A DNA stretch of 64,000 nt from the NCBI RefSeq assembly GCF_002914585.1, contig NZ_PDDM01000008.1, positions 124,001 to 188,000 of the forward strand. The letters are read 5' to 3'. Source of the stretch: Pseudanabaena sp. BC1403 (GTDB lineage Bacteria > Cyanobacteriota > Cyanobacteriia > Pseudanabaenales > Pseudanabaenaceae). The notes beneath the pieces were generated by a model, which was given only the letters and a program-made list of their open reading frames with translations, did not search any database and was not told the DNA's origin. This document shows positions 11,517-64,000 of this stretch, in pieces (positions within the stretch are counted from its first letter, which is position 1; every line of letters starts with the position of its first letter). Both the position numbers and the translations under genes were made by a program.

Positions 11517-11592
11517 ATCTGTGAAACTGAAGCTACTCAAACCTCTAGAGTGCTTTCCATTGATTGTTGATGCGATCTCCTTCAGCAAACCA

Positions 11593-12255
11593 TTAGCCCA
11601 CAATCAAACCATCTTGCACAAAAATTTTCCGCTTAGTTTGAGCAGCGATATCTGGCTCGTGGGTAACGATGACAATTGTGATGTCTTGAGAATTGAGATC
11701 GCTAAACAAATTCATCACCTCCTGCGAAGTTTGCGAATCTAGCGCACCCGTTGGCTCATCAGCTAGAAGTAGCGCAGGTTGATTGACCAACGAACGGGCG
11801 ATCGCCACTCGTTGTTGTTGTCCGCCAGAGAGTTGATTGGGGCGATTGGATAAGCGATCGCCTAAACCCACTTTTACTAAAGCATCTTCGGCACGCGATC
11901 GGCGTTCTTCTTTGGGAACTCCTGCATAGACCATTGGCAACATCACATTTTCTAAAGCCGTTGCTCGTGATAAGAGATTGAACTGCTGAAACACAAACCC
12001 AATGCGCTGATTGCGGATATAGGCTAAATCAGCTTTTGCTAGACTGGTTAGGTTTAGCTCTTCTAAATAATATTCGCCACCCGTAGGGCGATCGAGACAG
12101 CCAATGATATTCATTAATGTGGATTTACCAGATCCCGATGCGCCCATAATCGAGACATATTCGCCCGAGTCGATATGCAGATTAATCCCTTTGAGAATCG
12201 GGATATCAACCTCTCCGAGTCGATAACTTTTGGTGATATTTTCCATTGTAATCAT
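11593..12255 (-). CDS. MacB/LolD-type ABC transporter ATP-binding protein
   Basis: A 220-residue ATPase with Walker A GASGSGKS near residue 38, Q-loop FVFQQFNLL, signature LSGGQQQRVAIARS, Walker B LLLADEPTGALD and H-loop VTHEPDIA. It energises the permease at 12268 and adaptor at 13571 in a tripartite efflux system at the inner membrane. The gene is 12 bp after the permease stop in the same operon. A GGGAGAG sequence precedes the ATG. A remnant of a paralogue's C-terminus lies at 8621-8737. Confidence 0.95.
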   Translation of the reverse strand: MITMENITKSYRLGEVDIPILKGINLHIDSGEYVSIMGASGSGKSTLMNIIGCLDRPTGGEYYLEELNLTSLAKADLAYIRNQRIGFVFQQFNLLSRATALENVMLPMVYAGVPKEERRSRAEDALVKVGLGDRLSNRPNQLSGGQQQRVAIARSLVNQPALLLADEPTGALDSQTSQEVMNLFSDLNSQDITIVIVTHEPDIAAQTKRKIFVQDGLIVG

Positions 12256-12267
12256 CGTAAGCTCTCC

Positions 12268-13530
12268 CTATTCACTTCGCAAAGCTGTAATTGGATCGAG
12301 TCTGGCAGCATTTCTGGCGGGAATCACTCCAGCGACCAACCCGACGGAAGTTGACAAACCAAACCCCAATAAGATCGAACTGGTAGAAATAATAAATGGG
12401 AACTTAAACGCAGTTGCCGCCGCAAAGGTAATCCCGATCCCGATCGCAATGCCAACGGAACCACCAACTACGGAAATAACCACCGATTCAGTCAGAAATT
12501 GAATCAAAATAGCATTGTCCGTTGCGCCTAAAGCTTTACGAACACCGATTTCACGAGTACGCTCGACTACAGAAACTAGCATGATATTGGCAATGCCGAT
12601 GCCGCCGACAATCAGCGATATCCCTGCGATCGCCACCATCATCAGCGTAAACAGACTCAAAATTGTATTGAAAGTTTTGAGGATATCCGCTTGATTAGTA
12701 ATCCGAAAATCATCATTTTCAGGAACATCAATGTTGTGACGCAACCGCAAAATATTGGCAACTTGAAACTTTACTATGTCTAATTTTGTTTCGTCCTGAC
12801 CCTTGACATAGATTCCATTAACAGAAACTCCCGTTAGCGAATTATTGCCAATGATCCGAGCGGACATTGAGGTTAAAGGAATATAAACCGCATCATCGCG
12901 ATCCTGAGGGCCTTGAGAACCCTTGGCTTCCATTACCCCAATCACATCATAAATCTCGCCTTGAATTCTGATTTTTTGACCAATGGGATTGACATTACTG
13001 GGAAATATATTTTTCCTGACTGTGGGAGCGATCACGGCGACTGATGCAGAGGACTCTAGCTCCTCATTGTTAAAATACCTACCTTCCACAGGAAAAGTAT
13101 TGCGGGCATTGGGATAACTTAAATCAGTTCCATATACTGTCGTGGAAGTATTTTTGTCACCAAATACTACTTGTGTATTGCGTTGTAAATATGCCGAGAC
13201 AATAGTTGCTGATGGGGCTTGAGTCGCGATCGCTTGAGCATCTTCCCATGTTAGCGTCGTGACCGATCCCATCCCCTGACTAACGCCGCCACTTTGGACG
13301 GCTCCAGCCATTACTTGCAAAACATCAGTGCCTAAGCCGCGAATGGATTCTTCGGTAGATTTCTGCACGCCTTGCCCGATTGAAGAAATACCAATTACCG
13401 AAGAAATCCCGATAATTACGCCCAACATAGTCAAGCCGCTACGCAGTTTGCTGCCCCAGAGAGAGGCGATCGCCATTTCCGCAATTTCCCAATAGGAAAT
13501 TTTGTGAGGGCGTAAAGTCATAGGATTCAT
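12268..13530 (-). CDS. MacB-like ABC permease (FtsX domain)
   Basis: A 420-residue permease with the MacB layout: an N-terminal transmembrane helix (GLTMLGVIIGISSVIGISS), a large periplasmic MacB_PCD domain (about 55-255), then three transmembrane helices in the FtsX domain (about 290-415). The coupling motif is VVERTREIGVRKALGA. It is the membrane core of a MacAB-type exporter for drugs, lipids or peptides. It lies between the adaptor gene (40 bp upstream) and ATPase gene. In Gram-negative systems this complex pairs with a TolC-like outer-membrane channel, which is not in this window. Confidence 0.94.
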   Translation of the reverse strand: MNPMTLRPHKISYWEIAEMAIASLWGSKLRSGLTMLGVIIGISSVIGISSIGQGVQKSTEESIRGLGTDVLQVMAGAVQSGGVSQGMGSVTTLTWEDAQAIATQAPSATIVSAYLQRNTQVVFGDKNTSTTVYGTDLSYPNARNTFPVEGRYFNNEELESSASVAVIAPTVRKNIFPSNVNPIGQKIRIQGEIYDVIGVMEAKGSQGPQDRDDAVYIPLTSMSARIIGNNSLTGVSVNGIYVKGQDETKLDIVKFQVANILRLRHNIDVPENDDFRITNQADILKTFNTILSLFTLMMVAIAGISLIVGGIGIANIMLVSVVERTREIGVRKALGATDNAILIQFLTESVVISVVGGSVGIAIGIGITFAAATAFKFPFIISTSSILLGFGLSTSVGLVAGVIPARNAARLDPITALRSE

Positions 13531-13570
13531 ACCTCGCTAATTTTAAATAAGTTGATCTTTAAATTGCTCT

Positions 13571-14920
13571 TTAGCGTGGAGCAGGCGGCAGAATCCCCCC
13601 TGAGGAACTAGATTCTTTCTTAGAAGGAGGACTGACGAGGACTTGTTCATTACCTTGGAGTCCAGATTTAACTTCCGTAAAACTGCCTGCGGTATTTCCC
13701 GTTTGGATCGCTTGGAATATTGGTTGGCGATTGTTGCCCAAAATATAAACCCCCGTTCCATCAGCTTGCTTAACTACGGCTGCATTGGGAACCAATATCG
13801 CATTATTTAAACTGCCGACCTCAAACTGAGCCTCAACATTCATGCCAGCTTTCAACTTGGCGACTTCCGTAGAAGTAATCCCCACACGCACCTCAAAACT
13901 GGTCACATTTTGGGAAACCGTTGCCTGTGGGGCGATTTGTTCGACTTTCCCTGTAAATATTTCGTTAGGGAAGGCATCAACTTTCACCTTCACTGATTGT
14001 CCTAATTTGACTTTGGCAATTTGAGCTTCCGATATATTGACGACCACTTGAAGGCGATCGTTGGCAAGGGTCAAAATTGACGAAGACGATGCCGAGTCGC
14101 TACTTCCAGACATAGAAGGACTAACAAATGCTCCGATGTCTGCATATTTTTTGATGACGAGACCATCAAAGGGCGCGACTATTTTGGTGTCGTCAAGGGA
14201 AGTTCGAGTAGTTTGTAAGCTTCCTAAGGCTGATTCTAACTTTGCGCGAGCTTCGTCAATATCTTCACTGCGCGATCCTGCTTGAGATAATCCTAACGAT
14301 TGTTGTGCTTGTAATACTGAAGCCTGAGCGGTATCGCGGGATGTAACTGCTTTTTGGTAGGTTTGTCGAGAAACTGCTCCTGATTGATAAAGAGATTGAT
14401 TGCTAAGGAGATCTTCTTCCGCCTGACGCAGTTCGACTTGAGCGCTGTTTAGCTGAGCCTTCGCCTTTGCGATCTCTTCAGGACGGTTACCTGCGATCAA
14501 CCGCTGCAAATTTGCTTCCTGTTGCGAGACTTGTGCTTCCATTTGGATGCTTTGCCCACGCAGTCCCGAATCGTCCATTTCGGCTATTAATTGACCCTGA
14601 CGTACGCGATCGCCTTCTTTTACCAGCAAAGTTTTAATTGTCCCCGTTGATTTGGGGCTGAGATTGATCGAACGCTCAACCTTGATCGTGCCATTGGCGG
14701 TAATGGTAATCGGCAGAGTTTTGCGTTCTACAGGCTGAGTGATAAGATCGCTTGGAGAATTATTTACCGATGCCGAGTTTAAAAATTGCCAGCCTACTCC
14801 GCCAACTCCTAAAAATAGCAAAAGCGCAGGTAACCCAAGTTTAAGCCATTTCCCTCTCGGCAAAGGTTTCTTATCTGGCTTCTGACTTGAAGCATTCGCA
14901 GGAACTGGATCGGATAACAT
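13571..14920 (-). CDS. MacA/HlyD-type periplasmic adaptor subunit
   Basis: A 449-residue membrane-fusion protein. One transmembrane anchor lies at about 27-49, followed by lipoyl halves (GTIKTLLVKEGDRVRQGQLIAEM and IVAPFDGLVIKK), a long coiled-coil hairpin rich in Gln/Ala between them (about 120-230), then beta-barrel and membrane-proximal domains. The C-terminal 25 residues are Ser/Pro-rich. It is the first gene of the macA-permease-ATPase operon. A TetR-type palindrome lies about 55 bp upstream (14975-14990), so the operon is probably repressed by the TetR protein at 15679. Confidence 0.94.
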   Translation of the reverse strand: MLSDPVPANASSQKPDKKPLPRGKWLKLGLPALLLFLGVGGVGWQFLNSASVNNSPSDLITQPVERKTLPITITANGTIKVERSINLSPKSTGTIKTLLVKEGDRVRQGQLIAEMDDSGLRGQSIQMEAQVSQQEANLQRLIAGNRPEEIAKAKAQLNSAQVELRQAEEDLLSNQSLYQSGAVSRQTYQKAVTSRDTAQASVLQAQQSLGLSQAGSRSEDIDEARAKLESALGSLQTTRTSLDDTKIVAPFDGLVIKKYADIGAFVSPSMSGSSDSASSSSILTLANDRLQVVVNISEAQIAKVKLGQSVKVKVDAFPNEIFTGKVEQIAPQATVSQNVTSFEVRVGITSTEVAKLKAGMNVEAQFEVGSLNNAILVPNAAVVKQADGTGVYILGNNRQPIFQAIQTGNTAGSFTEVKSGLQGNEQVLVSPPSKKESSSSGGILPPAPR

Positions 14921-14974
14921 GATTTTCCTCCAAAAAACAAAAGGAATACGTAGATATTCTTCAAAGCATTAAAA

Positions 14975-14990
14975 ATGTAAGTACTTACTT
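14975..14990. promoter_or_regulatory. Putative TetR operator upstream of the efflux operon
   Basis: The sequence ATGTAAGTACTTACTT contains the perfect 12-bp palindrome GTAAGTACTTAC. The same core is found in the 16-bp palindrome directly upstream of the TetR gene (16301-16316), with 15 of 16 positions shared. It lies 55 bp upstream of the adaptor start. Confidence 0.75.
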
Positions 14991-15120
14991 ATTAATTGAT
15001 GTTACGTGGAAGGAATTTCTGTGATAGCGAAAGTCTAGGGCTGGCAAGGGGGATTGCCCTGCTTCGCTACCAGCAAGATATTCATCATCTACGTTCCACG
15101 TAACATCAGTTAATAAGTAA
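14985..15120. repeat. Inverted-repeat element (27-bp arms)
   Basis: The arms 14985-15011 and 15094-15120 are inverted copies with one mismatch in 27 (core TGATGTTACGTGGAA). The interior holds a weaker GCTGG...CCAGC hairpin and no coding frame. The left arm overlaps the right half of the TetR operator, and the right arm directly abuts the 101-bp element at 15121. It looks like a small non-autonomous mobile element. Confidence 0.7.
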
Positions 15121-17721: not shown

Positions 17722-17824
17722 GTGTCCTAAAAAAATTTGTATTGCTATACGATCCTAAATAGTTAATTTTTATAGTCCAGCTTATCTCTAGCTATAAGGA
17801 CTAGCTTTACAATGCTATGATCTC

Positions 17825-19313
<1,489 letters not shown>

Positions 19314-24323: not shown

Positions 24324-24521
24324 ATGCTGATTAGTCTAATAGGTCTACCTGTTTCCTTCATATCATCAACGATTTTACTGATTGCTTTACCTATATCGTT
24401 TTTGGGTCTTGCTGCCCTTACCTTAATCCTAGCAACAAGCCATTGCCAAAGAGCAACCCGACAAACAGCAGAATCGCTAACAATAAGTTTTAGTAGTGAA
24501 AGCGACAGGTCAGAATTCTGA
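24324..24521 (+). CDS. Possible small membrane protein
   Basis: A 65-residue ORF with two adjoining hydrophobic stretches (MLISLIGLPVSFISSTILL and LIALPISFLGLAALTLIL) and a hydrophilic tail. I recognise no family. Its last 32 bases overlap the 3' end of the toxin pseudogene on the other strand, and the ATG has only a weak upstream signal. It may be a chance ORF. Confidence 0.25.
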   Translation: MLISLIGLPVSFISSTILLIALPISFLGLAALTLILATSHCQRATRQTAESLTISFSSESDRSEF

Positions 24522-24747
24522 TTTGATCGTCTAGAACTTCATAAGCTAGATGATGTTCTTGATCAATACAGCGTGACCAAAAGCTAGACAGATCGTGTTT
24601 TAGAGCTTCAGGCTATCCTATACATTCAAATGGATTACGTTGGACTTCACGAATCAGTTTGATGGTTATCAAAGCTTTTTTACAATCATTTTCAATCCAC
24701 TAAGCTAAATCCTCAAAAGCATCTGCATCAAATTCCAAGTTTTTCAC
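24490..24747 (-). pseudogene. YoeB/Txe-type toxin with two in-frame stops
   Basis: On the minus strand the frame from GTG at 24747 to TAA at 24490 would encode 85 residues of the Txe/YoeB RNase family: LEFDADAFEDLA*WIE, IKLIREVQRNPFE, LKHDLSSFWSRCIDQEHHL and the typical C-terminal end CRFHY. TAG codons interrupt it at codon 16 (24700-24702) and codon 45 (24613-24615). Apart from these stops the sequence is well kept, so inactivation looks recent. It overlaps the antitoxin's 3' end by 20 bp, the normal arrangement for yefM-yoeB. Confidence 0.88.
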
Positions 24748-24934
24748 AGGCTGATTCCAAAGAGATTCCATCTTGTCGTTTTCTGGCTGCAAGCAGTCTT
24801 TCTTTCATGGATGGACTATTGAGTAAATAGGCAGTTTCTCTTTCTGCCATTAGTTCTTGCCAAAAAGCAACGGGGACAACTACAGAAACTGTTTGCCCTT
24901 CTGAATCGCAAACGTATTGTAATGCGTTAGTCAT
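24728..24934 (-). CDS. Phd/YefM-like antitoxin of a YoeB-type pair
   Basis: A protein of about 68 residues beginning MTNALQYVCDSEGQTVSVVV, with a hydrophobic strand, helix (PVAFWQELMAERETAYLLNS) and a C-terminal stretch (MKERLLAARKRQ then LESACEKLGI) in the layout of Phd/YefM antitoxins. It appears intact while its toxin gene, overlapping downstream, carries two stop codons. The ATG at 24934 is preferred to the TTG three codons earlier. It may persist as an orphan DNA-binding antitoxin able to counter related toxins; this is inference. Confidence 0.75.
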   Translation of the reverse strand: MTNALQYVCDSEGQTVSVVVPVAFWQELMAERETAYLLNSPSMKERLLAARKRQDGISLESACEKLGI

Positions 24935-24977
24935 AACAGCCAATATTAAGTTACTGGATTAATCATAATTTATAACT

Positions 24978-25155
24978 GATCGCCCCTCATCACCCATAAA
25001 ACCCGATCACCTATTTCTCCAATCATCCAGCGATCACACCCTCACCACTCAACACCCGATCGCATATTCCCCCAAATCAAACAGCGATCGCCCCTCACCA
25101 CCCACAAACCCCGATCGCCAATTTCTCCACATCAAACAGCGATCGCATATCTCTT
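24978..25155. repeat. HIP1-bearing tandem repeat, locus 1 (3 units plus partial)
   Basis: Units begin at 24978, 25032, 25086 and 25141 (54-55 bp period). Each follows the pattern GATCGCCCCTCACCACCC, AAACCCGATCGC, an AT-rich TTTCTCC stretch, then CATCAAACAGC leading into the next GATCGC. The family recurs at 26803 and 29477. The remainder of this gap (25156-25395) shows nothing recognisable. Confidence 0.85.
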
Positions 25156-25395
25156 TATCATTCACATAGATATCGTTGACGTTTTCGGCAATTGAGATTA
25201 AATGCGATTCTGAGGATTAGGACTTAAGACAAATTTTTGACTGTGATTGCTGAGAATAATACTAATGGTGGTGGTAATCATGTCTAATTTCTGTTAAAAG
25301 TAACGTACAGTTTTCACAAGTAAATTTGCCATATGCAACGCCGAAAATTGCTTGAAAAACGAGTACGATAACTATTATTTAGACAACAACATCTC

Positions 25396-26787
25396 ATGAA
25401 ACTGATATTAGCTATCGTTTTATGGCTGAGCAATAAAATTATTGTCATTCTTTCTCTTTTTGCGGTATTGACAATCTTATTTACTGCAAATGATACTCTC
25501 AGACCATTAGGTCAGAATCTTTGGGAGCAATTTTCAGGGAAGGATGGGCAGGAAGTTGTTGATAAACTAAATGATGATATCAACAAACTAAATGATGATA
25601 TTAAGGAGATTGAACGCACTACAACACCACAACTGAAAATAGATCTTGATCGTGAAAAGAACAATATCAAACTCCGCATTAAAGAAGAATGTGAGACGGA
25701 GGTTCCATGGTATGAATTTTATCGTTTGGATAAGCATTGGCTAAAAGAGCAACAGGAGCCAGCTTGTAAAGCCCTGAAAGACAGTCAGGTATTTTCTGAG
25801 CGCCTAGACAGAGAATATCTTGAACGCGAGAAAAAACTAAAGGATCTCATGAGGCAACTGGAGCCAAAACGTCTACAACTTAAAAATGCGGAACAAAAAC
25901 TGGGTGGAGTATGGAAATTATTGGAAATAAATTTTCAAGAGAATTGGATACATATTTCTTACATCATTTTTCTGGTCTTATTTGCTTCTCCTTTATGGAA
26001 GATCTGGTGCTTTTATGGAATTGCTCCTTTCGCAGAAAAGTCGCCACCTATCCAATTAACTGATCCAATGACCAATGGAAATATGGTCTATAAAGAAGCA
26101 AAAAAGACAGTTAGTATTACAGTTGATCGACCTAATCCTTTATGTATGCGGATGGATTATATGAATCAATATGATCGTAATTTGGTTAAGCGAACACGAT
26201 TGTTTTGGAAATGGTCTGCACCATTCATCAGTTATGCATCGGGATTGTTTGAGCTAACAGAATTTACTACTAAAAATATAGTTGAAGATGGAACTGTTGT
26301 TTTATCTCCTAAAACCGTAAGCAATTATATTACTGAAATAGAATTACAACAACATCATGGACTTGTTATTCATCCTTATTGTATTGTTGGAATCTCTGGG
26401 GATATTCAAGTAAAGACTCAATGGGTATGGAGCTTTCATAGTTGGCTAACAGGTCAACATCGGTACATTATTTTTTATGGGACAGGAAAGCTTTATTTAG
26501 AAGGAAGTGGAGGGATATATGTCATGGAAGCATCTCCAGCAAAGACGAGTGTTGAAAGTCATTTATTGATAGGTTTTGATAGCCGATTAGGATATTCAAC
26601 GATCCGTACAGAGACATTTTGGCCGTATTTTCGTAACAAAGTTTCGTTAATTGATAATCAATTTTCTGGAAAAGGAGTATTTTTACGACAAGCAGTTGCT
26701 CCTGTAAAAGCACTTACTCCAATAGAAAAGAATTTTCAGTTTATTAGTAATCTTACTAGCATCGTCGGAAAATTTTTTGGTTTCTAG
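25396..26787 (+). CDS. Large membrane-anchored coiled-coil protein of unknown function
   Basis: I do not recognise a named family. The 463-residue product has a hydrophobic N-terminal helix (about 8-30) and a charged coiled-coil region with a short internal repeat (KLNDDINKLNDDIKEIE, about 56-170). A second transmembrane helix (ISYIIFLVLFASPLWKIW) lies near 195, and a beta-rich C-terminal domain spans about 225-430. The latter, with FYGTGKLYLEGSGGIYVMEA, is reminiscent of the AIM24/TIGR00266 double-sheet fold, but this is a weak structural guess. It has no HIP1 octamer and is flanked on both sides by the HIP1-bearing repeat, so it may be an insertion. Confidence 0.75.
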   Translation: MKLILAIVLWLSNKIIVILSLFAVLTILFTANDTLRPLGQNLWEQFSGKDGQEVVDKLNDDINKLNDDIKEIERTTTPQLKIDLDREKNNIKLRIKEECETEVPWYEFYRLDKHWLKEQQEPACKALKDSQVFSERLDREYLEREKKLKDLMRQLEPKRLQLKNAEQKLGGVWKLLEINFQENWIHISYIIFLVLFASPLWKIWCFYGIAPFAEKSPPIQLTDPMTNGNMVYKEAKKTVSITVDRPNPLCMRMDYMNQYDRNLVKRTRLFWKWSAPFISYASGLFELTEFTTKNIVEDGTVVLSPKTVSNYITEIELQQHHGLVIHPYCIVGISGDIQVKTQWVWSFHSWLTGQHRYIIFYGTGKLYLEGSGGIYVMEASPAKTSVESHLLIGFDSRLGYSTIRTETFWPYFRNKVSLIDNQFSGKGVFLRQAVAPVKALTPIEKNFQFISNLTSIVGKFFGF

Positions 26788-26802
26788 AATTAGGCTGTAA
26801 GC

Positions 26803-26856
26803 GATCAAACCCTCACCACCCAAACCCCGATCGTCTAAATCTCAACATCAAACGGC
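26803..26856. repeat. HIP1-bearing repeat, locus 2 (single unit)
   Basis: One 54-bp unit (GATCAAACCCTCACCACCC, AACCCCGATCG, CATCAAACGGC) lies directly after the membrane-protein gene. It is clearly related to the arrays at 24978 and 29477 but diverged at both GATCGC sites. Confidence 0.75.
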
Positions 26857-26911
26857 GATCATCAAACACTATTTCTGATTATAATGAATATAAAAATTGT
26901 GGGCAAAATGT

Positions 26912-27505
26912 ATGATTTCTGCTACTTTATCGCCTAGCCTATCACCTACAGAATATCTAGAGTGGGAAGTAACACAAGAAGGTAGATATGAGTATGAGTA
27001 TGGAGAGGTTATCGAGGTGACAGGTGGAAAGCTTGAAAATAATGAAATTGCTCTTAATTTAATTGTATTGCTCCGAAGTCATTTACGTGGTAAAGGTTGT
27101 CGTATCCTTGGTGGTGATGCGAAACTCATGACCATTCCGAGCAATGTTTATTACTTTCCTGATGTGGTTGTTAGTTGTGATTCTCGCGATCGCTATGCTA
27201 GGGAGTTCCTACAATATCCTTGTTTAATTGCGGAAGTCTTGTCCCCTGCTACAGAAAATCGTGATCGCGGGATTAAGTTACGCAACTATCTCAAGATCGA
27301 CTCATTGCAAGAATATATGCTCATCAATTCAGATTTTCCGAGTATTGAGTTCTATCGTCGTAGAACTTGTACAGAGGTTTGGGAATATCTAACAATTAAT
27401 AGTTCTGATTTAACCGTTAACGATCCCGAAGTTCAACTAACTAGCATAGATCTTAATCTTCCGCTATCACTCATTTATGAAAATGTTGATTTTAAGCAAT
27501 CCTAA
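26912..27505 (+). CDS. Uma2-family (DUF820) endonuclease-fold protein
   Basis: A protein of about 197 residues showing SPTEYLEWEVTQEGRYEYEY, GEVIEVTGGKLENNEIALNL, VYYFPDVVVSCDSRD and CLIAEVLSPATENRDRGIKL, the conserved Uma2 blocks with the putative active-site D and E residues. The ATG at 26912 is chosen over the TTG at 26897. It lies between the HIP1 repeat unit and the PAP2 gene. Cellular role is unknown, as for most of the family. Confidence 0.9.
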   Translation: MISATLSPSLSPTEYLEWEVTQEGRYEYEYGEVIEVTGGKLENNEIALNLIVLLRSHLRGKGCRILGGDAKLMTIPSNVYYFPDVVVSCDSRDRYAREFLQYPCLIAEVLSPATENRDRGIKLRNYLKIDSLQEYMLINSDFPSIEFYRRRTCTEVWEYLTINSSDLTVNDPEVQLTSIDLNLPLSLIYENVDFKQS

Positions 27506-27580
27506 GCGCCTATTTCCTAAATAATGAATAGCCTATAATACTTGTTAAATCACATTAATTTTTATATTTGGAGATTGCCG

Positions 27581-28252
27581 ATGGTGCAGGTTAGTACTCG
27601 TCTTTACTGGTTGTTCCAATCACTCATTGCTTTCACTCCCTATCTGCTGGCAGGTTTGCTAGCAGGCACACTCGTTTTAGCGCTAGGTGTTTTCATTGCT
27701 CGTTTCCTTCTCTGGGATTGGTTACTACCTTTTGAAGAGTTGTGCTTGTTGACTCTCAAAGAATGGACTAATCCAACCCTAGACCGATATATGCTGACTC
27801 TAACTTGGATGGCACAAGGCGAAATTACCATTCCTATACTCATAGCGATCGCAGGAATTCTTATTTATCGTGACGAGGCAGTTCCAGCTCTGATTTTAGC
27901 GATCGGGCTAAGCGGTTCATGGTTGCTTAATGGGATTTTCAAGTCTTTCTTTCGACGTAAAAGACCTGATCTATGGGCTTCTTCTAAACGTCCGATGGAT
28001 TACAGTTATCCCAGCGGTCATTCCATGAGTGCAGTTTCCTTTTACGGTTTATTAGCGGCGATCTTAACGCAGTCTCTAAGTATTCCTTTAGGACTTACTG
28101 TTCCCTTAGCTGCGTTTTTAACCTTGGGGGTGGGCTTTAGTCGAGTGTATTTTGGGGTGCATTGGCCAACAGATGTCCTGAGTGGATGGGTTGCAGGCGG
28201 CATATGGCTTGCATCCTGCTTATACGGACTAGTTCAAATTAGTGGAATTTAA
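27581..28252 (+). CDS. PAP2-family lipid phosphatase
   Basis: A membrane phosphatase of about 223 residues, probably acting on phosphatidic acid or undecaprenyl pyrophosphate. The three acid-phosphatase motifs are present: FRRKRPDLW (KX6RP type), YPSGHSMS and SRVYFGVHWPTDV. Five or six hydrophobic segments surround them. I chose the ATG at 27581, which has GGAG eight bases upstream, over an upstream frame start at 27542. The gene ends 4 bp inside the 3' end of the convergent lipid-kinase gene, so two lipid-phosphate enzymes sit tail to tail. Confidence 0.92.
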   Translation: MVQVSTRLYWLFQSLIAFTPYLLAGLLAGTLVLALGVFIARFLLWDWLLPFEELCLLTLKEWTNPTLDRYMLTLTWMAQGEITIPILIAIAGILIYRDEAVPALILAIGLSGSWLLNGIFKSFFRRKRPDLWASSKRPMDYSYPSGHSMSAVSFYGLLAAILTQSLSIPLGLTVPLAAFLTLGVGFSRVYFGVHWPTDVLSGWVAGGIWLASCLYGLVQISGI

Positions 28253-29235
28253 ACTGAGATTGATGGGCGATCAGTGGAAATGCTGCCAGCTTGCTCTGTC
28301 AAACCATAGCTATTGTTTTCGTCAGCGAACTTTAATAGCAACTCAGGCGTAGGAACACAAATCAAAAGAGCATCTGGAACCACTTCCACAGTGATGGGAG
28401 TAACGCCTAGATACTGTCCATCGGCATGAACTTCTAAGGGTGGATAACTCTTAATCTCAATTTTAGCAGCGCGATGAGTCTTGAGCCGCTCATGGGGAAG
28501 ACGTTCACCCTGCATAGCTTTAAAGAAATGACGCATATGATCCCATTTGGAGGGGTTATCAATATACACTACGTCCAGCTTGCCATCATTCATTTTTGCG
28601 TCAGGCGCTAAGGCAAACTGCACCCCATAGCGAGGACTGTTGCAAATATTGACTTGCAAGATGCGTAAACGACGCATCCGTCTGCCATCGAGGCGCAAGA
28701 CCAAGCGGTGTTGTTTAAACTGCAAAAAAGTTTGGATGCCTGAAAAGACACTTTTAAAAGCAGCCCAATAATTTTTCTTGATTCCTTCTTTGACTTCATC
28801 TCCACAAGGAAAGAGGGTCGCTTCTAGCCCCACGCCTACCACTTCCACAAAGTATTGATTGTTTGCCTTGCCCATATCAAACCGACCACGCACTCCCTCT
28901 ACCAGAGTCTGGATAGCTTGAGATAAATCGTTGGGAATGTTTAAGCTTGCGGCAATGTTATTACGTGTTCCCATCGGAATAATACCTAGCACCGTTTGAG
29001 TATGCATTAATCCTCGCGCTACGGCTTCAATCGTGCCATCACCTCCCGCTACAATCACAAGTTCAGCACCTGCTTTAGCAGCCTCAGCCGCAAGTCCCTC
29101 ACCATCCTCATCGGGAGAAGTCGTACAGAGTTCAACTTCAATGCCTTGATTGTGCAAAGCATCGACAATTTCAGTTGACAGATCAGGTTTGTCAGCAGGG
29201 CCAGAAGTGGGATTGATGATGAGTCGGGTATGCAT
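28249..29235 (-). CDS. Diacylglycerol/sphingosine kinase-like lipid kinase (YegS/DagK family)
   Basis: A 328-residue soluble lipid kinase. It starts with RLIINPTSGPADKPDLS, has the nucleotide-binding VIVAGGDGTIEAVARGL near residue 80, GTRNNIAASL near 110, and the C-terminal beta domain (VYIDNPSK, LEVHADGQYLGVTPITVEV). The PEVxxDGE-like motif is LEVHADGQ. It probably phosphorylates diacylglycerol to phosphatidic acid. It converges on and overlaps by 4 bp the PAP2 phosphatase gene, which may carry out the reverse class of reaction. Confidence 0.9.
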   Translation of the reverse strand: MHTRLIINPTSGPADKPDLSTEIVDALHNQGIEVELCTTSPDEDGEGLAAEAAKAGAELVIVAGGDGTIEAVARGLMHTQTVLGIIPMGTRNNIAASLNIPNDLSQAIQTLVEGVRGRFDMGKANNQYFVEVVGVGLEATLFPCGDEVKEGIKKNYWAAFKSVFSGIQTFLQFKQHRLVLRLDGRRMRRLRILQVNICNSPRYGVQFALAPDAKMNDGKLDVVYIDNPSKWDHMRHFFKAMQGERLPHERLKTHRAAKIEIKSYPPLEVHADGQYLGVTPITVEVVPDALLICVPTPELLLKFADENNSYGLTEQAGSISTDRPSISV

Positions 29236-29476
29236 CTCTGTCGTTTTCCTATTGGTTTGAAGTTGGAAATATTAGGATAAAAGCCTGCTCATGCACACTT
29301 ACTTAACAAAAAGTCTACAGTTCATTGTTTTAGATACGTCCAAAAAATGAGCCAATAGATCTAAAGTCTACGGACTATAGCAGTTTGTTGAGACTTTCCC
29401 TTCCCTCTATAAGCTGATATACCGAACTGACTACCCTACCGCCCCATAAAGGAATTTCCCAATTAAACTTATCAGC

Positions 29477-29849
29477 GATCGCCCCCTACACCCACAACAC
29501 CAATCACCTAAATCTCAACGTCAAACAGCGATCGCCCCTCACAACCCAACACCCGATCGCCTATTCCTTCAAATCAAACTGCGATCGCCCCTCAACACCC
29601 ATAAAATCCAAACGCCTTTTCCCTCAAATCAAACAGCGATCTCCCCTCAATATCCATAAAACCCGATCGCCTACTCCCACATCAAACAGCGATCGCCCCT
29701 CACAACCCAACACCCGATCGCTTTTTTCCCACATCAAACAGCGATCGCCCACTCATCACCCAAAAAACCGATTGTCTATTCCCTAAAACCAAACAGCGAT
29801 CGCACTCTCCTCACCCCAAACCCGATCGCATATTCCCTCATCAAACAGC
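29477..29849. repeat. HIP1-bearing tandem repeat, locus 3 (7 units)
   Basis: Units start at 29477, 29530, 29583, 29638, 29691, 29743 and 29798 (52-55 bp). The consensus runs AGCGATCGCCCCTCACAACCC, AACACCCGATCGCCTATTCC, then CAAATCAAAC into the next AGCGATCGC, so each full unit carries two HIP1-like sites. Units are 75-90% alike, with no unique spacers. The array ends about 70 bp before the restriction-modification genes. The gap 29236-29476 before it shows nothing I can assign. Confidence 0.9.
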
Positions 29850-29922
29850 GAGCATACAAAAAATATGTAACGGATATTTTTCCCTATTCACACTAATTGT
29901 AGGTTTGATGTAGTATTAGGAA

Positions 29923-31398
29923 ATGAAATATATTGATTTATTCTCTGGATGTGGCGGTCTCTCACTGGGGCTTGAGAAAGCAGGTTTTAAACTGTTGTTG
30001 GCAGTTGAAAAGTCACCTATGGCTGCCGAGACATTTTATCATAATTTCATAAATCGAATAAAGTCACAAGATGAGTGGATCGCATACAACAACCTAACGA
30101 TTGAAGAACAATTTCGTCGTAAGTTAATTGTTAATGAAGTGAGCGCGGTTCTTGAGAATATAAACATAATGGAGAACCTTGAAAGCGAAGGTATTGACCT
30201 AATTGCAGGTGGTCCACCTTGTCAAGGGTTCTCAATGGCAGGAAAAAGAAATCCAAGAGATTTACGCAATCAGTTGCCTTGGCAATTTTTAGAAATGGTT
30301 GAGAGGTTACACCCTAAAGCTGTACTGATTGAAAATGTTTTGGGTATAAAACAGAATTTTAATAAGCATGGTGAAAAAGCTCCAATTGACGAGATCAATT
30401 CGGCTTTACATGAATTATGGCCAGGTTACGTGACTCAACTTGTTGAAGTAAATGCTATGCATTTTGGTGTTCCGCAGTATAGACCTCGTGTCATGATTTT
30501 GGGTATTCGTTCTGATATTGCAGACAAACTTAACCTCGAAATATGGGAGGGATTTTGGAAGTCGGCTTTTGATATTGAGCCACCAGTGATTGGATATAAA
30601 CGACCAACTTTAGCTCCAGTTACTACTTGCGAAAAACCACTTACTGTTCGTGATGCATTGTGGGATTTAAAAGGTAGTAAATATGCTTTGTCAGCTAAAG
30701 ATAATCGTTACAATTCTCCCAGTGCTTCTTATGCAAGGCTAATGCGTGAGGATTTTAGTTGGATGTCACCGCAAATCGTTAAATCTATACAACTAAACAC
30801 ACTAGAAAATAGTGGTTTGCGTAACCATTCAGAAAATATAGCTGATAGGTTTAGGTTGTACCAGATATTTCAAAAATATGGTGTGCCAGTAAAAATCTTT
30901 AATGTAGCAGCAAACTCCTCTTTATCTGCTCTTGAGAGAAAACAACTAATTCAAGGTGAAATAGTTAAGATAAAATTGCCAGCAAAAGCCCCTGACGGGA
31001 AAATTTTGGGAAAAGATATAGAGGAATTATTTGAACGGGTGATGAGTCTTTCGACGAAAAAGCATAGTCAGCGCCCATTAAAATGGGATTCTCCTTCACC
31101 AACTGTTCTATCTCTTCCAGATGATTTTGTTCATCCTAACGAAGCTCGAACTATGTCTGTACGAGAAATGGCGAGGCTACAGTCATTTCCTGATAGTTTT
31201 GTTTTTAGGGCAAAAGAAACAACTGGCAGCTTACGTCGGAGATTTGAAATTCCTCAATATACGCAAGTGGGAAACGCAGTACCACCATTAATGGCTGAAG
31301 CAGTCGGAAAAAAAATATTTGAACTTCTTAAAAAAGCGCTCAAATTCACTATGAAACCTTGTCAGGTGTCACAAAATCTAGAGAAACAAGCTAGTTAA
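29923..31398 (+). CDS. DNA (cytosine-5-)-methyltransferase
   Basis: The 491-residue enzyme methylates C5 of cytosine in a specific DNA sequence. Motif I is DLFSGCGGLSLGLEKAGF, motif IV GGPPCQGFSMAG with catalytic Cys100, motif VI LIENV, motif VIII VPQYRPRVMILG, and motifs IX-X MSVREMARLQSFPDSF and QVGNAVPPLMA. The target-recognition region lies between about residues 290 and 400. It is followed within 5 bp by an MvaI/BcnI-like endonuclease gene, making a type II restriction-modification pair. No HIP1 octamer is present in either gene, which suggests transfer from outside. Confidence 0.96.
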   Translation: MKYIDLFSGCGGLSLGLEKAGFKLLLAVEKSPMAAETFYHNFINRIKSQDEWIAYNNLTIEEQFRRKLIVNEVSAVLENINIMENLESEGIDLIAGGPPCQGFSMAGKRNPRDLRNQLPWQFLEMVERLHPKAVLIENVLGIKQNFNKHGEKAPIDEINSALHELWPGYVTQLVEVNAMHFGVPQYRPRVMILGIRSDIADKLNLEIWEGFWKSAFDIEPPVIGYKRPTLAPVTTCEKPLTVRDALWDLKGSKYALSAKDNRYNSPSASYARLMREDFSWMSPQIVKSIQLNTLENSGLRNHSENIADRFRLYQIFQKYGVPVKIFNVAANSSLSALERKQLIQGEIVKIKLPAKAPDGKILGKDIEELFERVMSLSTKKHSQRPLKWDSPSPTVLSLPDDFVHPNEARTMSVREMARLQSFPDSFVFRAKETTGSLRRRFEIPQYTQVGNAVPPLMAEAVGKKIFELLKKALKFTMKPCQVSQNLEKQAS

Positions 31399-31402
31399 CT
31401 TG

Positions 31403-32596
31403 ATGAGACCATTTAATCTTTTAGAAGAAAAAAACATCAAAATCTTAACTAGTGAAAACATCGAGATGTGTTTCTTGATGCCTACAGCTACAGGCTTACA
31501 AAAATCTATTATGGATGCAACGACTCTATTCAGGCTTTTTCTATATGAGCGTGGTATTCATGATTATGGTACGCAGGGACAAGGACCACAACACAAACAA
31601 ATTATACGTTCCCATATTGCATCAGAAAATGGATTTATTTCTAGTCAGGCTTCTTTGTATCGTCCTATTACCAAAAATGGCGATCCACGTATCTGGTTCA
31701 CTGGATTGAAGAAATATGCTGATACCAACGATATACTTGGTATTTTTGTGTTTGAGATGGAACTATATGTTCTTAATCTAACAAAACTTGATATTGAGCA
31801 AATTCTGAATGGAATAATTGTTACGCCAGTTGCAGATCTGATCCGTAGTATTAGTCAAAGTGCAAACAAAGTTGCTCAAGAGTTACTTTTTAAAATTAGA
31901 ACAATTGCTGCACGCGGACAAATTCAGGCTATTGGAACAGGTGATACAGCAATTGGGCGGACATTGGAAACTTTGTTAGGTATTGCGATGAACTCTCGCC
32001 AAGAACCAGATTATAAAGGTATTGAGTTGAAATCATTTCGTGACAAACGAGGAAACCGTAAAACATTGTTTGCAAAAGTTCCAGATTGGAATCTTAGTAA
32101 ATTCAAAAGTTCAGCAGAAATTCTTAATCAATTTGGGTATAAACGTGGAGATGATTTCAAGCTTTACTGTACAGTCAGTACTTTGAAGCCTAATTCCCAA
32201 GGGCTATTTTTAAGAATTGATGCAAAGTTGGATCAACTTATTGAAACTAGTCAAGAATTAAAAATTGGTGATTTTGCCATTTGGCAATTAGCGACACTTC
32301 ATGCTGAACTCAAAAAGAAGCATAAGGAGACCTTTTGGATTGCCGCTGATTCCGTTACTATTAATGAAGTTGAGTATTTCTGTTTTACAAAAATAGAACA
32401 TACACGTAGTCCCATTGTGTCCCAATTCGATTTATTGCTAGAACAGGGAATAATTACTCTTGATCATCTTATTAAGAGGACGAGTAATGGAAAAACGATT
32501 AAAGAACGTGTAAGTGAGAAAGGTCCTTTATTTAAAATTAAACCAGATAAACTTGAACTGCTTTTCCCTCCAAGCGTGAAGTATAGCCTCAGGTAA
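31403..32596 (+). CDS. MvaI/BcnI-family type II restriction endonuclease
   Basis: A protein of about 397 residues. The region 190-260 reads GRTLETLLGIAMNSRQEPD then YKGIELKSFRDKRGNRKTLF, which matches the conserved catalytic block of MvaI/BcnI enzymes (E, then PDYxGIELK as the PD-ExK site). MvaI and BcnI act as monomers on CCWGG and CCSGG; specificity here is not readable, and the partner is a C5 rather than N4 methylase. The extra N-terminal part of about 170 residues may help recognition. The ATG at 31403 directly follows the methylase stop, giving coupled expression. Confidence 0.88.
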   Translation: MRPFNLLEEKNIKILTSENIEMCFLMPTATGLQKSIMDATTLFRLFLYERGIHDYGTQGQGPQHKQIIRSHIASENGFISSQASLYRPITKNGDPRIWFTGLKKYADTNDILGIFVFEMELYVLNLTKLDIEQILNGIIVTPVADLIRSISQSANKVAQELLFKIRTIAARGQIQAIGTGDTAIGRTLETLLGIAMNSRQEPDYKGIELKSFRDKRGNRKTLFAKVPDWNLSKFKSSAEILNQFGYKRGDDFKLYCTVSTLKPNSQGLFLRIDAKLDQLIETSQELKIGDFAIWQLATLHAELKKKHKETFWIAADSVTINEVEYFCFTKIEHTRSPIVSQFDLLLEQGIITLDHLIKRTSNGKTIKERVSEKGPLFKIKPDKLELLFPPSVKYSLR

Positions 32597-32795
32597 ATTT
32601 ACGATCATCATCGCTTTTAACAGAACCATCGAAGGATGGGCAAAAGCGATCGCCGAAACTAGCAGCCGATGGACAGATAAAAAGCATGAATTACTGGATT
32701 TGATAACGAGTTTGGGATTTACCGTTGTGAAAGAGCAAACAGGCAATCGATTCCTTTACATCAATGCCACTAAGCCACTGATCTCACTCATCTAA
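32580..32795 (+). pseudogene. Unidentified gene fragment behind the restriction gene
   Basis: An open frame of 72 codons without a plausible start encodes FTIIIAFNRTIEGWAKAIAE, then SRWTDKKHELLDLITSLGF and a C-terminal end NRFLYINATKPLISLI before TAA. The protein-like composition and a HIP1 octamer suggest the 3' end of a gene of the host genome, cut by the insertion of the restriction-modification genes. I cannot name the family. Confidence 0.4.
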
Positions 32796-32854: not shown

Positions 32855-34030
32855 CTACAAATTCTCGTACAAATCAGCAATGACGATATCAGAAAACAAC
32901 CAACCATTGGGCGAAACTAACATAATACAAACATCCTCAGACTGTTCCACAAACCTGACCCAATCCTTCTCACGATAGCGATCGAGAATCCGCAAGGCGC
33001 GATCGCATAATTCTTTCCCATAGGATTCTTGCAACGCATTCAAACTCAAACCTTCCGCCAATCGTAAACCCTGCATGAGTGAGTCCATTAGCTCCTCCTT
33101 AGGCTCGATCATCGGAGCCGTAAATCCAATTCCTGTACTTTGCCAGAGCGCGATCGCATCGAGATATTGGCGCATCTTTTGAGGGCGATCGATTCTTTGG
33201 CGATCGATGTAACTGGTTGCACCCATGCCCATGCCATAAAAAGGCTGATTGTGCCAATAGGTCAAATTATGTTTTGACTGATAACCAGATTGAGCATAAT
33301 TCGAGATTTCATAATGTTCATAACCCGCAGATGGAAGTAACTCATGGGCTGATATATACATCTCAACCGTATGGGATTCCGTTGGCAATGGATTGTCACC
33401 TGCTTGATATCGTTTTCCAAAGGCAGTTCCTTCTTCGATAGTGAGATCGTAAATGGATAAGTGTTTAGGCTCTAATGCGATCGCCTTCTGAAGCGAATCT
33501 TGCCAATCTGCCATCGATTGATGGGGTAGCCCTGAAATTAGATCCAAACTGAAGTTCTCAAAGCCAGCATTCTTAATTGCATCCACGGCTTCATAGATAT
33601 CCGCAACACTATGACCACGCCCACAGACATCTAATAACTCTTGCTGAAAAGCCTGTGCACCCAGACTGATTCGATTCACACCCAAACTACGATAACCTTG
33701 CAAACTCTCCAGACTCACTGTTCCCGCATTCGCTTCGAGAGAGATATCAACATTAGGAGCGATCGCAAAATATTTTGCGATCGCTCCTAGAATTTGCTCA
33801 AGCTGCTTTACCGATAGCAAAGATGGCGTTCCACCACCAAAAAAGATCGTTTGCAAAGCTTCCAATGGTGGAATCTCCGCGACAGTGAGCGCAATTTCTT
33901 GACATAGCACATCAACATATTGCTGTTTAAGATTCTCACCGCCAGTAGTAATCGCGAAGTCACAATAAAAACAGCGTCGCTTGCAAAAGGGAATATGTAT
34001 ATATAGCGATTTAGGAAAGGTTTGGCTCAA
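32855..34030 (-). CDS. hemW: HemW-like radical SAM protein (coproporphyrinogen III oxidase-like)
   Basis: The 391-residue protein has the radical SAM cluster motif CKRRCFYCDF (CX3CX2C) near residue 18, then FFGGGTPSLL, a SAM-binding SLEANAG, RISLGAQAFQ and the HemN C-terminal domain. The short N-terminus before the cluster (about 17 residues) and lack of the extra HemN residues place it with HemW, a heme chaperone, rather than true HemN; many annotations nevertheless call these coproporphyrinogen oxidase. It is divergent from the Uma2 gene at 34164, with a small hairpin (34050-34083) between. Confidence 0.9.
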   Translation of the reverse strand: MSQTFPKSLYIHIPFCKRRCFYCDFAITTGGENLKQQYVDVLCQEIALTVAEIPPLEALQTIFFGGGTPSLLSVKQLEQILGAIAKYFAIAPNVDISLEANAGTVSLESLQGYRSLGVNRISLGAQAFQQELLDVCGRGHSVADIYEAVDAIKNAGFENFSLDLISGLPHQSMADWQDSLQKAIALEPKHLSIYDLTIEEGTAFGKRYQAGDNPLPTESHTVEMYISAHELLPSAGYEHYEISNYAQSGYQSKHNLTYWHNQPFYGMGMGATSYIDRQRIDRPQKMRQYLDAIALWQSTGIGFTAPMIEPKEELMDSLMQGLRLAEGLSLNALQESYGKELCDRALRILDRYREKDWVRFVEQSEDVCIMLVSPNGWLFSDIVIADLYENL

Positions 34031-41318: not shown

Positions 41319-41403
41319 AAAGAAATTGATTTGGGTATGTTGTTGACCTCAATTAATTTTTAGATTTGAGAAAAATGATCGCTGTCTTAAATTATCAATT
41401 CAT

Positions 41404-41748
41404 CTAATCATAAATTTCTCGGCGATGTCCAATCTGATGGATAGTGACACTTTTTTGTGATTGCGCGATCGCGTAAATAACTCGATAATCTCCAACGCGA
41501 AGCTTAAAAAAGCTTGATAAATTACCAGTAAGTGATAGAGGCGTAATTTGTTCAAAATTTTCGCCTAACCACTTGATTTTACGAGCTATCCGTATTTGAT
41601 TAGTGCGATCAATTTTTGCAAGATCGGCGATCGCATCAGATGTAAAATCAACACTATAACTCGTCCCAATTAAGCCCCAATGATTGCATAGCTTGACTAG
41701 CAGGAATAACAGTTGATTGCAGTTGTTGCCGTAATAAACGATCCACAA
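41404..41748 (-). CDS. RelE/ParE-family toxin (start uncertain)
   Basis: The conserved part reads YSVDFTSDAIADLAKIDR, IRIARKIKWLGENF, FFKLRVGDYRVIYAI and IHQIGHRREIY, which is the RelE/ParE superfamily fold with its Arg- and Tyr-rich end. Family members usually start with the SVDFT segment, at about 41665, but the frame has no ATG, GTG or TTG close to it; the TTG at 41748 gives an implausible N-terminus. Initiation at an unusual codon near 41670 through coupling with the overlapping antitoxin gene is likely. The pair could also be damaged. Confidence 0.75.
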   Translation of the reverse strand: MWIVYYGNNCNQLLFLLVKLCNHWGLIGTSYSVDFTSDAIADLAKIDRTNQIRIARKIKWLGENFEQITPLSLTGNLSSFFKLRVGDYRVIYAIAQSQKSVTIHQIGHRREIYD

Positions 41749-41863
41749 CTGCAGTTTTTAACTTCTTACCTTCATCTAGATCTATATATTCTTCTAGCAC
41801 TTCAATTACAACTTCACGAACTAGTAAACGAAACTGTTCGGTAGTGAGTTCTTTTATTTGCAT
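41654..41863 (-). CDS. Antitoxin partner of the RelE-like toxin
   Basis: A 69-residue acidic/helical protein (MQIKELTTEQFRLLVREVV, IDLDEGKKLKTAVVDRLL, SLGLNWDEL). It is of the type usually encoded directly upstream of RelE/ParE toxins in cyanobacteria. Its 3' end overlaps the toxin's conserved N-terminal region by about 10 bases, which suggests coupled translation. No clear DNA-binding fold can be named. Confidence 0.78.
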   Translation of the reverse strand: MQIKELTTEQFRLLVREVVIEVLEEYIDLDEGKKLKTAVVDRLLRQQLQSTVIPASQAMQSLGLNWDEL

Positions 41864-42013
41864 AGCATTACGGCTGTACTACTTGTTTTGAATTAATTCT
41901 AACGTAATCGTCAATATAAACCAGCAAGACGATCGCTATTTTGATTAGCTTGAGGATTTTGGCGATCGCAATTAATTGATAATGAGAGAAAATGCGATCG
42001 CTTATTCCTTTCT

Positions 42014-62510: not shown

Positions 62511-64000
62511 ATGGCTTCACGGATTTACTCACTTACGTTTATTTTGGTATCTGGACTCTTGGGCTTAGTTTTGCCGCCTGATTTGCCTTTGTTGACTTCC
62601 CAAGCACAGATGACGCAAGATTCCAGATTATCGGCAGATCTACTGATCCAAGTGGGAGATCGACAGCTTTCCCAAAGACAATACCGTGAAGCAATTCAGT
62701 CATATCAAGCAGCGTTAACAATCTATCAAACAACAAACAATCGCTACGGTGAAGGGTTTTCGCTGGTCAGTCTAGGCTATGCCTATAACAGTTTGAGAGA
62801 GTATCAAAAAGCGATCGATGCTTATTCGCAATCCTTAGCAATCTTTAAACAAATCGGCAATCGCAAAGGTGAAGAATATGCGATCCTTGCTCTCGGTATG
62901 TCCTACAATAGTTTTGGAGTTTTATCTAGCAGCCTAGGCAAGTATCAGCAGGCGATAGAAGCATCTCAGCAAGCCTTAGCGATCTTTAAACAAATTGGCG
63001 ATCGCAACAGGGAAAAGGCTTCGTTGCTCAGTCTTGGTTTTGTATATAACAGTCTCGGCGAACATCAAAAAGCCATAGACTACTACCAACAAGCTTTAGC
63101 AATCATTAAACAAACAGGCGATCGCGTTGGAGAAGGAGATGCGTTTATTGGGTTAGGCATTGCAAACATCAGTATCGGACAGTACCAGCAATCTATCGCC
63201 GCTTTTCAGCAAAGTTTAGAATTTAGCAAGCAAATCCGCGATCGCAATAATGAAAGTACTTCTCTCAATGGACTAGGAAATGCGCACAACAGGCTAGGAC
63301 AGTATCAAAAAGCCATAGATTACTACCAGCAAGCTTTAGTAATCTTTAAACAAACTAGCAATCTTAATGGCGAAGGATCTACCCTTGGCAATCTTGGCAC
63401 TACATTCTCCAGTCTGGGCGAGTACCAAAAAGCCATAGATTACCATCAACAATCCTTGGCAATATTTAGACAAATCAGCGATCGCCTTAGCGAAGGAAAA
63501 TCTCTCTCTAATCTGGGGCTTACCTCTAACAATATAGGACAGTATCAGAAAGCGATTGATTACTATCAGCAAGCCTTAGCACTTGCCAAACAAAGTGGCG
63601 ATCGCAGTGGAGAAGGAGCTTCACTAATTGGTTTAGGGCTTACCTCTAACAATATAGGACAGTATCAGAAAGCAATTGATTACTATCAGCAAGCTTTAAC
63701 AATCCTTAAACAAATTGGCGATCGCAATGGTGAAGGCAAATCACTTGGCGGTTTGGGAAATGGATACTACAGGATAGGAAAATATCAGAATGCAATCGAT
63801 TTCTACAAGCAGTCTTTAGCCATCTCCAAGCAAATCGGCGATCGTAACGGAGAAGGATATTCATTGATCGGTTTGGGGCTTGCATATAACAATCTAGGAC
63901 AGTATCAAAATGCAATTGAGTCTTACCAGCAAGCTTTAGTAATCGCCAAACAAATCGGTGATCGTGATGGTGAAGGAATTATCCTCAATAATTTGGGATT
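62511..64000 (+). CDS. Secreted TPR-repeat protein (runs off the right edge)
   Basis: The frame is open from the ATG at 62511, which has AAGGTGAT upstream, to the window end. A signal peptide covers about residues 1-32 (hydrophobic FILVSGLLGLVL, cut near SQA-Q). It is followed by at least ten 40-residue TPR units, each with the pattern YQKAIDYYQQALAI, KQ-GDR-GEG, and SLxxLGLxYNNLGQ. Such TPR arrays in cyanobacteria are often N-terminal to a CHAT protease domain, which would be outside the window. Several units are nearly identical at DNA level, indicating recent expansion. Confidence 0.92.
   Translation, partial: MASRIYSLTFILVSGLLGLVLPPDLPLLTSQAQMTQDSRLSADLLIQVGDRQLSQRQYREAIQSYQAALTIYQTTNNRYGEGFSLVSLGYAYNSLREYQKAIDAYSQSLAIFKQIGNRKGEEYAILALGMSYNSFGVLSSSLGKYQQAIEASQQALAIFKQIGDRNREKASLLSLGFVYNSLGEHQKAIDYYQQALAIIKQTGDRVGEGDAFIGLGIANISIGQYQQSIAAFQQSLEFSKQIRDRNNESTSLNGLGNAHNRLGQYQKAIDYYQQALVIFKQTSNLNGEGSTLGNLGTTFSSLGEYQKAIDYHQQSLAIFRQISDRLSEGKSLSNLGLTSNNIGQYQKAIDYYQQALALAKQSGDRSGEGASLIGLGLTSNNIGQYQKAIDYYQQALTILKQIGDRNGEGKSLGGLGNGYYRIGKYQNAIDFYKQSLAISKQIGDRNGEGYSLIGLGLAYNNLGQYQNAIESYQQALVIAKQIGDRDGEGIILNNLG

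Follow-up and report, generated by a model that had tools for sequence, protein, structure and literature searches.

The stretch of DNA analysed here (the window) comprises 64,000 nt of Pseudanabaena sp. BC1403 (contig NZ_PDDM01000008.1, positions 124,001 to 188,000), in which tandem repeats carrying the palindrome HIP1 lie among a toxin-antitoxin (TA) module, a nuclease gene and a restriction-modification (R-M) operon. These repeats appear to be the joints of an integron-like library of TA cassettes that is shuffled and shared across Pseudanabaena species. The extent of the finding, 24477-32792, is set by the cassettes and island genes and goes beyond the repeats alone (Table 1). All results are comparative and drawn from sequence.

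Tandem Repeats Finder detected repeats at 24978-25146 (period 55, 3.1 copies, score 198) and 29473-29851 (period 55, 7.1 copies, score 339), and a profile built from 21 units was used to place the individual units, giving three, one and seven at three sites, as an earlier note on this DNA had counted them. The unit is 52-56 bp long with the consensus GCGATCGCCCCTCACCACCCAAAAACCCGATCGCCTATTCCCC(N)A(N)ATCAAACA, and the consensus bears out the two CGATCG-type sites, the CCCCTCAC block and the AAACAGC block already described for each unit. It is a dimer, both ~27-bp halves of which start with a CGATCG-type HIP1 core, and contains the HIP1 sequence GCGATCGC. CGATCG occurs 23.9 times per kb in the repeats versus 3.0 per kb in the window. 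The + strand of the repeats is rich in C and A, with only 8% G, and 46 of its 48 Gs lie within 5 nt of GATC or CGAT.

All six frames of the seven-unit array contain stops, and its units measure 53, 53, 55, 53, 52, 55 and 52 bp; thus, the units share no coding frame, in agreement with the earlier note, and a coding repeat is not supported. A known noncoding RNA family is likewise not supported, since an Rfam search over the window matched no family to the repeats and returned only a thiamine pyrophosphate (TPP) riboswitch. Regular direct repeats are also a feature of CRISPR arrays, but here the intervals are whole TA modules. The repeats are diverged, there are no unique short spacers, as had been remarked, and no cas genes lie nearby.

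Table 1. Features of the window (strict families are defined in the next section)
Feature	Coordinates	Strand	Evidence or remarks
YefM-YoeB cassette (strict family 1)	24477..24977	-	90.6% identity over 1-497/497 to cassette L033_9404_9900
HIP1 repeat array, 3 units	24978-25138	+	Tandem Repeats Finder and profile; degenerate tail to ~25155
463-aa membrane/coiled-coil protein, AIM24-like domain	25396..26787	+	PF01987 AIM24, E=1.1e-10; between two arrays
Single HIP1 repeat unit	26801-26853	+	Profile
Uma2 nuclease cassette (strict family 26; gene 26897-27505)	26855..27497	+	PF05685, E=3.6e-29
HIP1 repeat array, 7 units	29475-29847	+	Tandem Repeats Finder and profile
Type II R-M operon	29923..32596	+	Between last array and array-end helicase remnant
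C5-cytosine methylase	29923-31398	+	PF00145, E=8e-56
MvaI/BcnI-type endonuclease	31400-32596	+	PF15515, E=3.8e-71
Array-end SF2 helicase-methyltransferase remnant (last 47 codons plus stop)	32649..32792	+	87% to residues 1340-1386
hemW, conserved host gene bordering island	32855..34030	-	Same border in G013, G019, G020
ParE/RelE cassette copy (strict family 5), without repeat	41398..41936	-	89-92% to family members

The three-unit array begins at the base directly after the YefM-YoeB cassette. Translation and tblastn indicate that the antitoxin open reading frame (ORF; 24728-24943, -) of this cassette is intact and that the YoeB frame (~24493-24771, -) is broken by two in-frame stops; an intact second YefM-YoeB copy lies elsewhere in the same genome. 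The Uma2 cassette is 91-95% identical to cassettes in L038, L036 and L049 and also sits between repeats in genomes G007, G011 and G025; genes for PAP2 and YegS proteins lie between it and the seven-unit array. The AIM24-like gene is possibly a long cassette. The earlier note described the repeats well but missed the adjoining YefM-YoeB cassette and the cassette arrays of the genus; the positions of the repeats that it saw bracketing a membrane-protein gene are right, but the bracketed features are themselves cassettes and island genes. The association with R-M genes that it pointed to is real.

Cassette arrays across Pseudanabaena

All 26 Pseudanabaena genomes searched have gene cassettes set apart by this repeat. 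By similarity search, in a census that is not exhaustive, the window's genome (G000; 5.5 Mb, 88 contigs) has 13 repeat matches and each of the other 25 genomes has 3 to 42, clustered in the relatives at a regular spacing of 600-900 bp, and in a class sample of 390, 11 genomes outside the genus match more weakly. Arrays hold 1-12 units, and the number varies. We defined a cassette interval as a stretch of <1.6 kb between neighbouring arrays in the genus loci fetched. The 149 intervals have a median length of 633 bp (5-95% range 494-808), and the neighbouring arrays are co-oriented in every pair (200 of 201 when a second repeat dialect, described below, is added). All but one interval contain ORFs, 87 contain two, and the median coding share is 87%. 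The longest ORF is on the repeat strand in 85 intervals and on the opposite strand in 63; transcription of the arrays thus does not start from a single promoter. Of the islands, L031 (G020:C101) is the largest and packs 20 arrays into ~14 kb.

Nearly all recurrent cassettes are TA or nuclease modules, with adjacent toxin and antitoxin genes of known families, as expected of type II TA systems. Pfam matches for 40 recurrent protein families include YoeB, ParE/RelE, Phd/YefM, HicA, HicB, PemK/MazF, BrnT and BrnA; HEPN, MNT, PIN, DUF433, DUF5615 and RelB-like proteins; and DUF4926/DUF6883, DUF2283, Uma2, a PD-(D/E)XK-like family and DUF29. The 50 flanking proteins taken as a control came from ordinary genes and in some cases were defence ATPases; TA toxins accounted for one of their 25 commonest families and Uma2 for two. 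Differences between YoeB copies number 100, 90 and 391 at the three codon positions, a third-position excess that fits purifying selection. Near or between arrays we also noted genes for STAND-like NTPase, AriA/AAA_21-like, ApeA-like and RloB-like proteins (L031:129-1751; L028:215-4331 and 11421-15028), which resemble known defence genes and are comparable to the R-M operon of the window. In other genera (L072-L075), different HIP1 minisatellites of 26-28 bp flank Phd-VapC-like, Phd-YoeB-like, RelBE-like and ParE-like genes, and the cassette design may be wider than Pseudanabaena.

Nucleotide clustering placed 142 of the 149 cassettes in 25 recurrent clusters (28 families with 135 cassettes under strict criteria), and relative to the repeat, 387 cassette matches are in the same orientation and none is inverted. 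Cassette order is common almost only to the sister genomes G006 and G007; leaving out G006, we counted 2 shared adjacencies versus 3.0 under random order. For 287 same-family pairs from non-sister genomes, compared in multiple alignments, cassette identity stays at ~0.93 over the whole span of hemW identity, 0.70-0.97 (Spearman 0.04, p=0.49), exceeding hemW identity in all pairs below 0.83 and falling below it in most pairs with hemW at 0.90-0.97. As a single core gene, hemW gives rough absolute rates; the absence of correlation is independent of the hemW rate. This uncoupling of cassettes from host phylogeny thus matches a horizontally circulating pool.

Islands of the same design are also built on a second repeat dialect of ~57 bp, CGATCGCCTATCCAT...CGATCGCC.CTCAAAAAAATCAACCAAACAG (for example G007:C1:1201-1213 kb, within L037, G007:C1:1198000-1216000, and G006:C22; also L242-L261). 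Comparison of 143 cassettes from dialect-1 islands with 47 from dialect-2 islands gave 367 homologous pairs within dialect 1, 39 within dialect 2 and 9 between the dialects, none inverted, and all 9 of the latter involve a single dialect-2 cassette at 68-76% identity. Dialect 2 has a separate pool of TA cassettes. Thus, separator sequence predicts the cassette pool, a requirement of homology- or site-dependent exchange.

To define what moves, we surveyed YefM-YoeB copies in the 26 genomes independently of the repeats. The 22 full copies of family 1 have a repeat directly at the right end in 21 cases, at both ends in 19 and at the left only in none. At the outermost arrays of islands, a known cassette abuts the first array on its upstream side 14 times and the last array on its downstream side 4 times. 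The unit of exchange is therefore a module followed by its repeat array, and the suggestion in the earlier note of a mobile repeat missed this moving unit. The repeat bases beside a cassette are more similar within a family (0.73-0.76 versus 0.63-0.65); this similarity peaks at the cassette edge and has faded by ~80-100 bp, which agrees with crossovers inside arrays.

The sister genomes, 98-99% identical around the islands, also place breakpoints in arrays. A 2.1-kb block with TA-like genes (L025:7192-9285) is present in G007 and absent from G006, where one 6-unit array replaces the two arrays (4 + 4 units) that flank the block in G007. This hybrid array has the left edge of the first G007 array and the right edge of the second, and was left by deletion. 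Three further breaks in synteny between the sisters have an edge in an array or at most 15 bp from one (L025:4489, L026:8463, L027:5140); the far edge of the L027/L055 difference is not at an array. Together with the permuted cassettes, these breaks support the idea, raised in the earlier note, that the repeats serve as a matrix for recombination.

Island borders and the array-end helicase-methyltransferase

One recurrent family among the flanking proteins is a ~1390-aa superfamily 2 (SF2) helicase with a C-terminal RRP8-like methyltransferase, related to phage DNA helicases (phrog_62, phrog_16). We found 34 copies or remnants in the genus (for example L061:1570-5733, -). An array lies upstream on the same strand within 4 kb in 25 of the 34 loci, with the gap only 56 bp in G015, and on the opposite strand in none; contig ends truncate six of the nine others, and the remaining three are true exceptions. 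Few genomes, G015 and G019 among them, have an intact gene; most remnants retain the C-terminal part, as does the window's (IAETSSRW...NATKPLISL*), which is placed between the R-M operon and hemW. No known recombinase domain was found in the protein.

The host genes downstream of the helicase-methyltransferase differ almost from genome to genome, and include genes for an FtsH-type protease, hemW and an EF-G-like gene (all named by eye except the hemW-type match). We therefore conclude that the gene moves, or has moved, with the island, and reject it as a fixed syntenic neighbour. The hemW border recurs in relatives with two cassettes in G013, one in G019 and an island of 20 arrays in G020, and the upstream flanks of these hemW-locus islands differ in every relative (L188-L194, L182-L185). 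Large chromosome rearrangements may also have their breakpoints at islands.

Mechanism of cassette exchange

Outside integrons, arrays of gene cassettes are hardly known, and a whole genus here appears to run an integron-like cassette library by means of tandem repeats and not an integrase. Like sedentary chromosomal integrons (superintegrons, as in Vibrio), the islands line up small, exchangeable cassettes in long arrays of one orientation, with a repeat after each; they are rich in TA modules, their order is permuted between strains and their cassettes come from a horizontally shared pool. Unlike superintegrons, the islands have a tandem HIP1 minisatellite of variable length between cassettes in place of a single attC hairpin, occur several times per genome with no adjacent integrase, and carry cassette genes in either direction with respect to the repeat. 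An integron integrase (IntI; TIGR02249) scores above cut-off in 13 of the 26 genomes, at up to ~475 bits (for example G007:C1:4478372 and 3533942), always away from HIP1 arrays and with other neighbours; none was found beside an array in the 26 genomes. The system thus works like an integron but does not qualify as one.

Intergenic tandem repeats are known from other cyanobacteria, where heterocystous species have short tandem repeats of heptamers (STRR) and long ones of ~37 bp (LTRR). Here the unit is a 52-56 bp HIP1 dimer with neither the 7-bp nor the ~37-bp period, and we know of no case in which STRR or LTRR act as cassette separators. Nor did we find an earlier description of HIP1-repeat TA cassette arrays in the literature searched. 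TA islands, with an excess of closely spaced TA pairs of different classes, were reported by Makarova et al. (2009; PMC2701414), who did not attribute the clustering to tandem duplication and left a preferred region or horizontal gene transfer of TA cassettes open. The Pseudanabaena arrays share such close pairs of different classes, but the parts of that paper drawn on here describe no repeat separators or exchange mechanism; cassette arrays offer a concrete cause for a clustering of TA modules that has been unexplained since 2009. HIP1 has been described as a dispersed octamer of unknown function, with no evidence for a role in homologous recombination and some for one in site-specific recombination (Elhai, 2015; PMC4390886). 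Here HIP1 with its CGATCG core is the building block of the repeat units, in tandem in contrast to the dispersed octamer, and this motif, highly over-represented in many cyanobacteria, gains a testable role in recombination. Views on how TA and defence genes spread among cyanobacteria would change.

We suggest that RecA-type homologous recombination between direct repeats of the same dialect, perhaps stimulated by HIP1, is probably what exchanges the cassettes. A cassette consists of one TA or nuclease module of ~0.5-0.8 kb and then a tandem array of 1-12 HIP1-bearing units, with cassettes joined head-to-tail in islands. Since the arrays of one island share orientation and sequence dialect, recombination between arrays would delete, duplicate, excise or insert whole cassettes and leave the genes undamaged. 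DNA of the same dialect from a foreign species, perhaps arriving as circular or transformed DNA, would recombine likewise, and a cassette pool shared between species would follow. The chemistry would be that of ordinary RecA-dependent homologous recombination, with HIP1 perhaps helping, and TA addiction, R-M and other defence genes may keep the islands in the population.

Several points weigh against a RecA-based exchange. The longest exact stretch common to two arrays of one genome has a median of 15-21 bp and a maximum of 48; efficient RecA exchange usually requires about this median length or more. A repeat is absent from one family-1 copy and from the ParE cassette of the window. The same patterns of orientation, permutation and pools would result from a dedicated recombinase with a dialect-specific target site, and the array-end helicase-methyltransferase hints at dedicated machinery.

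It is possible, if rather unlikely in our judgement, that a dedicated site-specific system recognises the repeats, be it an integron integrase acting in trans or another recombinase, with the helicase-methyltransferase as a part. The integron-like layout, the fixed orientation, the dialect-specific pools, the occurrence of integron integrases in half of the genomes and the strand-specific position of the helicase-methyltransferase beside arrays are all consistent with such a system. However, arrays with cassettes are present in genomes without an intact IntI (G000, G001, G002, G003, G004, G005, G008 and others), and HIP1 cassette families are missing from the IntI loci of G007 (two), G014 and G022. 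The only fold of the repeat is through pairing of HIP1 with HIP1 across ~46 nt, and it has no attC-like hairpin; a crude attC scan gave 0 matches, also in true integron loci, and hence had no sensitivity. Unit number varies from 1 to 12, the hybrid array of G006 is not the product of a precise site exchange, and the helicase is mostly a remnant without a known recombinase domain.

In a related proposal, the island would be a self-standing, non-integron element that uses its dialect-specific HIP1 arrays as attachment sites, with the array-end helicase-methyltransferase acting on or marking the repeats and driving exchange; the element would have moved to many chromosomal sites and mostly decayed. 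We offer this tentatively and hold it to be unlikely.

It is improbable that the repeats are regulatory or insulating DNA between TA modules (a terminator, or a matrix for nucleoid proteins or methylation) and that the shuffling occurs by other means. Their strong strand asymmetry, dense GATC/CGATCG sites and strict placement between modules would suit this function, but on this view one would not expect dialect-specific pools, breakpoints in arrays or a fixed orientation in modules that are transcribed in opposite directions. Selfish minisatellites, expanding at HIP1 sites and simply tolerating the gaps between TA genes, would account for the variable unit number and for other HIP1 minisatellites in other cyanobacteria, but are very improbable on the junction data, as repeats stop at the same cassette base in nearly all genomes, their edges are family-specific and random expansion would not produce the 633-bp modular spacing.

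Other features of the window

The ParE gene of the cassette without a repeat is at 41404-41748 (-; PF05016, E=2.1e-10). For the neighbouring rnz gene, the named relatives belong to Pseudanabaena strains, with proteins 93-99% identical. The TPP riboswitch lies at 17823-17920 (Rfam RF00059, 60.5 bits). A further tandem repeat, of 120 bp in 3.9 copies (63514-63978), resembles a tetratricopeptide (TPR)-type protein repeat and has a HIP1 site in most copies.

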